Below are positions 26,265-33,428 of a stretch of 34,936 nt of DNA, one piece after another. Each line of letters begins with the position of its first letter. The first letter of the stretch is position 1. The stretch spans positions 72,425-107,360 of the forward strand of contig MFRX01000009.1 of NCBI GenBank assembly GCA_001784725.1. The letters are read 5' to 3'. Source of the DNA: Candidatus Moranbacteria bacterium RIFCSPHIGHO2_02_FULL_40_12b. Lineage in GTDB: Bacteria; Patescibacteriota; Minisyncoccia; Moranbacterales; 2-12-FULL-40-10. Below the pieces are notes generated by a model. That model did no database searches. It saw only the letters and a program-made list of their open reading frames with translations, and was not told the DNA's origin. A program made the position numbers and the translations under genes.

Positions 26265-26429
26265 ATGAAATTTAGAGAAATTCCAGTGGTTATCCCTTGT
26301 TTCAACGAAGGGAAGACCGTCTATCAGAACATCCTGAAAATTTACCAAAAATTATTTCTGATCCAGATTGGGAAATTCGTTCGGCAGTGTTTTTTAAAGA
26401 GCAGAATGTCGGAAAGTCCGACAAGTTAA
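26265..26429 (+). pseudogene. GT2 glycosyltransferase, 5' remnant (about 28 authentic codons)
   Basis: From the ATG at 26265 the frame reads MKFREIPVVIPCFNEGKTVY and a little further (about to codon 28), an unmistakable start of a DPM-like GT2 (VVIPCFNE). It then loses family resemblance and stops at 26427-26429 after 54 codons, so it is below the ORF-track cutoff. The DDGS and DxD regions are absent. The true gene appears to have been fused by deletion to the unrelated C-terminal fragment that follows in another frame. A strong promoter lies upstream. Confidence 0.75.
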
Positions 26430-26600
26430 AAAGTTTATCAAGTGATAAAGTTGAAAGTGAAAAATTGCCTGTGATTGAATTTAAAAAAATAAATCCCACA
26501 AAGTATCGGGTACGAGTACATAATGTGAGCGGAAAATTCCCGTTGGTTTTTTCGGAGTCGTTTCATGACGGTTGGAAAGCATACTTGGCAAAGCCAAGTA

Positions 26601-26628
26601 ATTTTCAATTTTCAATTTCTAATTTCCA
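26601..26628 (+). repeat. Heptamer tandem array inside coding sequence
   Basis: Four contiguous 7-bp units (ATTTTCA, ATTTTCA, ATTTCTA, ATTTCCA) followed by degenerate ones to about 26655. They are translated as part of the C-terminal fragment (FQFSISNFQ). Confidence 0.85.
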
Positions 26629-27049
26629 AACAAATTCCAATGATTTAATTTCCAAGTATAAGATTTTAGATGGCAATGAAGAAGACCAGGCATCAAAGGA
26701 TGAGTTAGGGGATTTTATTCAGAAGGGGTGGGTAGCTGATTTGGGCAATGGTAAAGAAAAAACTGTTGAGCATAAAAAATGGGAAGACAACAAGGAAAAG
26801 TTGGATTACGTGGAAAAATATAATATTGGTTTTATTTCCAAAAATTTTCAGGGGACGGTACAGAGTGATAATTTATCAAGCGGAAATATTTTTGAAACTT
26901 GGTTGCCTGCGAGCAAGATGAATGACCCCAAGAATAAATCAGGGATTTTTTCAGGGGCAGGTAAAGTAGTGGAGTTGACGGAGGAGGATCATCTGATGGC
27001 GAACGGGTACGCGAATAGTTGGGTAATTAATACGGAGGAAATTTGCAAG

Positions 27050-27081
27050 GGTAGATCCCTCGACTTCGCTCGGGATGACAC
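27050..27081 (+). repeat. Small partly palindromic element encoding RSLDFARDD
   Basis: The core CCCTCGACTTCGCTCGGG can fold into a short imperfect hairpin with a TTCG loop. From general experience, near-identical stretches ending in GGGATGACA recur across unrelated bacterial genomes. Here it lies in frame between two cysteines of the C-terminal fragment. Confidence 0.65.
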
Positions 27082-27268
27082 ATATTGCGTCAAAAATGAG
27101 GATGGATCGTATGATATGGAATTAGTGGTGGAATTTTGGCCCCAGCGATTATTTTACTTAGGATTAGGAATTTCTGGCGTGACTTTATTAGGTTGTCTAG
27201 TATATTTGGCATATGACTGGAAAAAAATAAAAAAAAATGTTATTTTGAATAATGAATGATTTAAGAAT

Positions 27269-32401: not shown

Positions 32402-33397
32402 ATGAGTGAAAAGCCATATTTATCCATTATCGCGCCTCTTTACAATGAAGAAGGGAATGTGAAAAAGCTTCACGAAAAAATCGTCGGAGCTATGAATAAT
32501 TTAACCCTCTCTCCAGCTCTCTCCCTGCCTCGCCGGCAGGCGGACCAAAATGGGCGAGGGGGCGGGTTGTATGAGATTATTTTTATTGACGATGGTTCTG
32601 CTGATAATACGGTTAAAGAATGTGAGGGATTAATTCCTCTGAAACTGATAAAATTCCGGAAAAACTTTGGGCAGACCGCCGCGTTTGACGCGGGAATAAA
32701 GAATTCAAGCGGTGAAATTATCATCACGATGGACGGTGATATGCAGAATGATCCGAATGACATTAAACTTTTAATAGAAGAATTAGACAAAGGTTACGAT
32801 GTTGTTTCCGGCTGGCGCTGGAAAAGAAAGGACTCATTATTAAAAAAGATTTTTTCCCGCGGCGCCAATCTTTTGCGGAAAATTTTAGTCAAAGACAATA
32901 TTCACGATTCTGGATGCAGTTTGAAAGCGTACCGGCGGGAATGTTTTGAAGACATGGATTTATTCGGCGAAATGCACCGCTTTATTCCGGCGATGCTCCA
33001 ACTTCAGGGATTTAGAGTCGGGGAAGCGAAAGTGAACCACCTGCCTCGCGTTGCCGGAAAAACGAAATATAACTGGAAAAGATCAATTAAAGGATTTACT
33101 GATATGCTGGCGATATGGTTCTGGCGGAAATATTCCAGCCGCCCGCTGCATTTATTCGGCGGGGGAGGAATAATTTTTTCTTTGGCAGGCGTGGCGATTT
33201 TAATCTGGATGGCGGTTATCAAGATATTTTACGGAGCTTCGCTTTCGGAAAAAATCTGGCCGATGGTTGGAGTATTTTTAATGCTGGTTGGAATACAATT
33301 ATTCGTTTCTGGATTACTGGCGGACATCGCGATAAAAAATTATTACAAAAACCGGAATAGGATGAATTATACGATTAAAGAAATTAGGGAACAATAG
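32402..33397 (+). CDS. GT2 glycosyltransferase, GtrB/ArnC/DPM-like, with two C-terminal helices and an in-frame insertion
   Basis: A 331-residue membrane glycosyltransferase. Motifs are IAPLYNEEGNVKKL, IIFIDDGSADNTVKE, the metal-binding MDGDMQNDP, and DSGCSLKAYRREC. Two membrane helices follow (IIFSLAGVAILIWMAVIKI; GVFLMLVGIQLFVSGLLADI). This is the layout of enzymes that load a sugar on undecaprenyl phosphate for later transfer outside the membrane. Between the NEE motif and the DDGS motif lie about 22 extra residues (LSPALSLPRRQADQNGRGGG) encoded by a repeat-like 66-bp element; ordinary family members have only a short turn there. The protein probably still folds, since the element sits in a surface loop before strand beta-2. 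A leaderless promoter precedes it. Confidence 0.88.
   Translation: MSEKPYLSIIAPLYNEEGNVKKLHEKIVGAMNNLTLSPALSLPRRQADQNGRGGGLYEIIFIDDGSADNTVKECEGLIPLKLIKFRKNFGQTAAFDAGIKNSSGEIIITMDGDMQNDPNDIKLLIEELDKGYDVVSGWRWKRKDSLLKKIFSRGANLLRKILVKDNIHDSGCSLKAYRRECFEDMDLFGEMHRFIPAMLQLQGFRVGEAKVNHLPRVAGKTKYNWKRSIKGFTDMLAIWFWRKYSSRPLHLFGGGGIIFSLAGVAILIWMAVIKIFYGASLSEKIWPMVGVFLMLVGIQLFVSGLLADIAIKNYYKNRNRMNYTIKEIREQ
32503..32568 (+). repeat. 66-bp palindrome-ended element inserted in frame in the GT2 gene
   Basis: It begins AACCC and ends GGGTT (inverted ends), contains a CTGCC...GGCAG inner hairpin and a late GGGCGAGGG, and is far more GC-rich than its surroundings. Its length is exactly 22 codons, so the frame is preserved. 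Confidence 0.75.
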
Positions 33398-33428
33398 AAT
33401 TAAGATTTAAGATTTAAGAATTAAGTAG
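33395..33428. repeat. Heptamer tandem array filling the GT2-pheS junction
   Basis: The GT2 stop TAG begins a run TAGAAT, TAAGATT, TAAGATT, TAAGAAT, TAAGTAG that continues right up to the pheS ATG. The unit is 7 bp with small variations. Confidence 0.9.

Follow-up and report, generated by a model that had tools for sequence, protein, structure and literature searches.

Probable insertion of nested palindromes into a glycosyltransferase gene, and a frame-neutral 21-bp palindrome in protein-coding genes of Patescibacteria

A segment of a family-2 glycosyltransferase (GT2) gene in the stretch of DNA analysed here (34,936 nucleotides, henceforth the window) is very probably a mobile-type DNA insertion and not an ancestral part of the glycosyltransferase. 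It consists of nested palindromes, the inner one being a frame-neutral unit of 21 bp. The whole insert is a GC-rich composite of 66 bp on the forward strand (32503..32568) with AACCC/GGGTT ends, located in frame between the NEE and DDGS motifs, as the first-pass annotation of this DNA had claimed. The GC contrast described there was also found: 68% in the insert versus 36% in its flanks and 35% in the whole window, with 16 of about 34,900 windows of 66 bp being equally GC-rich. Three parts follow one another on the forward strand, namely the 5' part of the outer palindrome (32503..32523, AACCCTCTCTCCAGCTCTCTC), which resembles the CCCTC(A/T)CC...CTCTCC arm of copies elsewhere in the same genome; the inner nested element of 21 bp (32524..32544, CCTGCCTCGCCGGCAGGCGGA), read in the LPRRQA frame and containing the core CCTGCCTCGCCGGCAGG at 32524-32540; and the 3' part of the outer palindrome (32545..32568, CCAAAATGGGCGAGGGGGCGGGTT), in which 17 of 18 bases are identical to the first copy in ligA (CCAAAAGGGGCGAGGGGG). 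The segment had been regarded as belonging to one element family; a family is indeed present, but instead of a single element there are two, nested in each other.

The host gene (32402..33397, forward strand) encodes 331 aa with a PF00535 domain (Pfam, E 6.7e-28). Judging from Pfam and PDB matches, the latter including 9hwj (E 1.6e-36) and 5ekp (E 3.4e-20), the product is a membrane-anchored family-2 glycosyltransferase of the polyprenyl-phosphate sugar transferase type. The nearest solved relatives found in the PDB search were an undecaprenyl-phosphate 4-deoxy-4-formamido-L-arabinose transferase and sll0501. The source bacterium is of the tiny-genome, Patescibacteria type, represented by a 0.94-Mb draft in 46 contigs, 94% complete. 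Just 3' of the GT2 gene (33397-33425) lies an AT-rich tandem stretch, gaattaagatttaagatttaagaattaag, resembling the AT-rich repeats of LigA loops. About 1.2 kb before the window begins, there is an IS200-like transposase gene with one internal TGA (L059, G000 C9:70898-71263), and in the only genome of the same family a RAYT-like gene directly precedes the GT2 orthologue (L072, G001 C58:4180-5665).

Matches to the GT2 protein at E <= 1e-30 were present in 50 of the 57 genomes searched, the source genome included. We aligned 30 fetched loci, i.e. the window gene and 29 orthologues from other genomes of the same order, and none of these 29 contained the inserted residues, in agreement with the earlier claim that the segment is foreign to GT2 proteins. 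In the orthologue from the same-family genome, which is 76% identical, ACQKIGRSFEII stands where the window protein has AMNNLTLSPALSLPRRQADQNGRGGGLYEII. Pairwise comparison showed the window protein to be 19 codons longer than nearly all orthologues, giving a net extra of 57 bp (T35-G53; 32504..32560, forward strand) whose exact edges depend on the alignment. The insertion had been put at exactly 22 codons; it does keep the frame, but this size could not be upheld, and if exactly 66 bp were removed, the loop would be three codons shorter than those of the relatives. The mismatch between the net 57 bp and the 66-bp composite means that the host gene has lost some codons or that the outer boundaries were placed wrongly. 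An AlphaFold2 model built on the aligned orthologues (mean pLDDT 78.3) fell below 50 only at residues 38-54 (32513..32563, forward strand), so that the insert is predicted to form a disordered loop between the helix 20-32 and the strand 57-63. A structure prediction to look for a loop extension had been suggested earlier. In another orthologue (L015 of G042), the palindromic insert at the same GT2 loop is a different one, about 36 bp long (KPARNDSRSDSGRP).

The inverted ends and the CTGCC/GGCAG hairpin reported earlier are present, though not striking when taken alone. The hairpin of the 66-mer (MFE -31.3) is weakly better than shuffled sequence (mean -26.6, z -1.53, 10 of 200 shuffles as good), and such 5-bp ends together with the hairpin could originate by chance in GC-rich DNA. 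The palindrome by itself would thus not carry the claim, and there was no Rfam match within the window. The insert is established as an element because its parts recur, not because of the strength of its own hairpin. A second copy of the whole 66-mer, for which a genome search had been suggested, was not found in the source genome, where a 23-bp pattern with three mismatches allowed also retrieved the window copy only; the components nevertheless recur. The pattern CCTCWCCN{4,34}GGGCGAGG, designed for the outer palindrome, gave nine overlapping matches in the source genome, corresponding to six further sites, against one control match. Of these sites, ligA accounts for three; two others are within ORFs of 456 aa and 407 aa, the latter glycosyltransferase-like, and the sixth is intergenic, upstream of a yebC-like gene. 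All five copies within ORFs, those in ligA included, are in frame. The second ligA copy is plain (PHPTLSPKGARG), while the first and third enclose further short palindromes, in both cases at one and the same internal position, which demonstrates nesting. As for the window copy, its outer palindrome has diverged, with one arm close to the ligA copies and the other arm poor: none of 1000 shuffles matched the first ligA copy as well as the 3' part does, and 0-3 of 1000 were as similar to the three ligA copies as the 3' arm is, whereas the best match of the 5' part, the C24 copy, was equalled by 18 of 1000 shuffles.

The inner element is far more widespread. Its family 21-mer is CCTGCCTCGCCGGCAGGCRGG, of which the window copy is a one-base variant departing from the RGG consensus at the last base. 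In the consensus CCTGCCTCGCCGGCAGGCRGGY, the arms CCTGCCT/AGGCRGG pair with R being either A or G (T-A or T-G), and the loop is conserved as well, since a pattern with a free loop still yields mostly the TCGC form. Other genera of the order also have the core CCTGCCTCGCCGGCAGG. Among 384 genomes of the class, 50 contained an 18-bp core, and a phylum-wide sample of 287 genomes included 28 with the full 21-mer; reversed controls gave no match in any of these searches. The carriers found belong to the window's own phylum, and one of them is named as a Patescibacteria bacterium. Copy numbers range from 1 to 23 per genome. Mostly a single variant prevails in a given genome (among the copies listed, all have A in G586 and nearly all have G in G504), and this uniformity suggests amplification. 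In several loci the element is itself nested in other repeats: CCCTCGACTCCGCT..TCGCTCGGGATGACA in L044, GATTGCCACGGTCGCT..CTCCCTCGCAATGAC in L047, and a CCTCACCC..CTCTCC repeat in L039, L043 and L053. In-frame copies occur in IscS, MurE, UvrD, ArgS, IleRS, RseP and others, and priA, dnaE and uvrA were recognized as further hosts from their sequences. Nine of ten host proteins scanned had a Pfam match, several of the matches spanning the insert. Together with the five outer copies, these cases bear out the earlier notion of a family of elements that leave the reading frame of their hosts intact.

A few other occurrences should be mentioned. The window itself contains an in-frame repeat encoding SLDFARDD (27056-27085, TCCCTCGACTTCGCTCGGGATGACA) in ORF 26297-27259, and in L044 (G128) the 21-bp element splits a repeat of this type. 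PASPAG is encoded at the same site of one gene in three genomes from two families (L101, L105 and L106), reflecting either an old insertion or a hotspot. The 21-mer is also present on four putatively viral IMG/VR contigs (L237-L240).

Comparison with empty sites revealed a gain of exactly seven codons in four genes: IscS, MurE (L181 vs L177), an ABC ATPase (L120 vs L098 of the source genome) and TsaE (L187 vs L188). For IscS, GCGA-CCTGCCTCGCCGGCAGGCAGG-TTCG in G181 is opposed to GCGATTCG in its genus relative G201, i.e. 21 bp are extra, and no target duplication is visible at this GCGA/TTCG site in the closest pair. The other three sites have flanking DNA too diverged to be read, so IscS is the main basis for the absence of duplication. 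No stop codon occurs in any of the six frames of the 21-mer, and all six phases are represented among the inner copies. In the class sample, 70 of 91 copies were located in ORFs of at least 150 aa, compared to 80% of random positions. We further compared 87 copies with simulated random insertion into the same loci. Of the observed copies, 68% were read through by ORFs of at least 200 aa, 5% had such an ORF on one side and none was shifted; the corresponding values were 68%, 7% and 0.2% for a simulated 21-nt insert, and 22%, 33% and 7% for one of 22 or 23 nt. This distribution fits a frame-neutral unit landing with little site preference, on which selection may still act. A plain tally of 71 copies in frame and none shifted was rejected as evidence for frame-keeping, because simulated out-of-frame inserts are also often read through, owing to the occurrence of spurious long ORFs. 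Intergenic copies were more frequent in a second set, drawn from other classes, where several of the ORFs reading through also looked spurious; the coding fraction of that set is therefore not counted as evidence. The frame-keeping of the inner element can be explained by its 21-bp, stop-free, apparently duplication-free design plus selection.

The following scenario would account for the GT2 segment. A GC-rich palindrome of the CCCTC(A/T)CC...GGGGCGAGGG family would have entered the loop between the first helix and the second strand of the GT2 domain, and a 21-bp palindrome of the CCTGCCTCGCCGGCAGGCRGG family would have been placed near the hairpin apex of the outer one, most simply by a later insertion; the outer element thus presumably preceded the inner. 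Being seven codons long, stop-free and without duplication where this can be read, the inner unit would enter genes in either orientation and any phase, adding seven residues, and copies in tolerant surface loops would survive. We infer that each element spreads as a whole, by transposition or by copying, and the GT2 protein presumably keeps its activity. Insertion via single-stranded DNA (HUH/Y1-type) or hairpin-primed repair ranks first as the most plausible mechanism, due to the hairpins and the apparent absence of target duplication. That the 21-bp palindromes insert throughout the phylum at any site, even within one another and within essential genes, by a mechanism not yet described, is a tentative and rather doubtful proposition.

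As regards other explanations, HUH chemistry of the IS200/IS605 type inserts DNA without target duplication and GTAG-REPs are thought to be moved by RAYTs, so the elements could be REP-like hairpins mobilized by a RAYT (Y1/HUH) transposase of the same cell. The source genome does possess four Y1_Tnp genes, several of which resemble RAYT genes and have their own palindromes around them; many carriers encode Y1 transposases, and duplication-free insertion would agree with this chemistry. On the other hand, no PF01797 match was found in G012, G167 and G394 (9, 8 and 3 copies, respectively), drafts of 95-97% completeness; the CCTGCCTCGCCGGCAGG element was present at none of the 27 Y1_Tnp loci examined, a set from drafts and so not exhaustive; and neither element carries a GTAG or CGTC tag. 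We consider RAYT mobilization in the same cell unlikely, albeit possible. The sole CCTGCC..GGCAGG match among the 27 loci is part of a GT2 gene and differs in its core. The RAYT-like genes in L067, L075 and L080 of the source genome and L072 of G001 are each surrounded by several copies of a gene-specific palindrome of 20-23 bp, which also occurs within the transposase ORF itself. Spread without any dedicated enzyme, by DNA uptake and homologous recombination or by template switching between hairpin-forming repeats, would explain why the 21-mer is near-identical across many families, why some carriers lack Y1 transposases, and why the element is often found inside other repeats, with a flank word of at least 8 shared across it in 13 of 88 copies versus 0.6% of controls. 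Yet clean 21-bp insertions at unrelated unique sites (IscS, MurE) need a step of unit insertion beyond homology, and we regard recombination, too, as an improbable sole route.

Two further alternatives dispense with mobility. An ordinary expanded loop, coded by divergent GC-rich low-complexity sequence that is palindromic by chance, would be in line with the modest hairpin score (z only -1.5) and with the length change tolerated at the same loop in L015, but it is already contradicted by recurrence: an exact 18-bp core in 50 genomes without reversed-control matches and in all six frames, and an outer arm found three times in ligA. It is accordingly hardly credible. The same low standing is given to a metagenome mis-assembly that put a repeat into the gene. 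Repeats do cause assembly chimeras and the source genome is a 46-contig draft, but the GT2 gene is open in the correct frame on both sides of the insert, and the pattern appears in many genes, genomes and families, including G663 with its 1.02-Mb contig. A mobile-type insertion of nested palindromes is therefore the preferred reading.

The elements work like several known repeats, but lack some defining features of each. REPs are mostly intergenic, whereas the frequency with which copies in the class sample fall within ORFs is close to that of random positions. MITEs end in terminal inverted repeats and are usually accompanied by a target duplication, while here the whole unit is a hairpin and the IscS site shows no duplication. 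Unlike GTAG/CGTC REPs, the inner consensus lacks either tag and copy numbers are low, and unlike GTAG REPs, no RAYT gene flanked by the element was found among the 27 Y1_Tnp loci. Since length, tag, transposase flank and target duplication all disagree, we do not file the elements under any of these groups. Similarities are nevertheless apparent. Rickettsia palindromic elements (RPEs) of about 105-150 bp and their Wolbachia counterparts occupy in-frame positions in conserved genes unrelated to one another and are found in intergenic DNA too (PMC2229807, PMC10969869), and a palindromic repeat in frame in several unrelated conserved genes is seen here as well. Our elements are set apart from RPEs by length (inner 21 bp, outer about 36-60 bp, both together 66 bp) and by host, Patescibacteria instead of Rickettsiales, as well as by nesting. 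Intragenic REPs are palindromes of 20-40 bp, many of them in replication and repair genes (PMC3733652), as are ours in ligA, uvrD, priA, dnaE and uvrA. MITEs with ORFs, such as ERIC and the 107-bp Correia type, are non-autonomous and able to form in-frame fusions with ORFs of the host (PMC2229807), and repeats joined in frame to a host ORF are likewise observed here.

New in relation to RPEs are the unusually small size of 21 bp, the nesting and the occurrence in Patescibacteria, from which our literature search retrieved no report of such elements, which is not proof of novelty. Protein-coding palindromes have so far been treated mainly as a peculiarity of Rickettsiales and intragenic REPs as scattered cases; here, a large radiation with streamlined genomes has them in core genes (ligA, iscS, murE, tRNA synthetases). 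If the 21-bp frame-neutral palindromes do insert anywhere throughout the phylum, few protein-coding mobile elements known would be as small, and they would keep supplying the proteins of Patescibacteria with loop extensions. So clean a unit makes selection for frame neutrality, mode of movement and enzyme tolerance testable. Apparent loop "innovations" in proteins of Patescibacteria may thus be repeats that were inserted, with consequences for alignments and for the prediction of structures.

Finally, three loops differ widely in both length and content among 31 LigA proteins (30 from the order and L151). Judged by eye, some of their segments (IPNSKFQIPNS, RPLSTKTTQRGQTS, LPTGRQV) look repeat-derived, so the insertion process is probably not special to one element. 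In comparison with E. coli LigA (2owo), two inserts of the source genome fall into alignment gaps and the third into a stretch that the alignment skips. The first-pass annotation had proposed a general in-frame-insertion process in this lineage; such a process is further supported by these loops and by the different insert in L015, but it is not lineage-specific, as the inner element is spread over the phylum. L151 (G122) and the source-genome ligA (L190), which come from different families, contain different repeats in the same three loops. A cca-like gene (L004, G000 C1:40263) harbours a short palindrome, CCGCCAGCTGGCGGACCAAA (DNPPAGGPKDWDVAT), which may be a further small insert.
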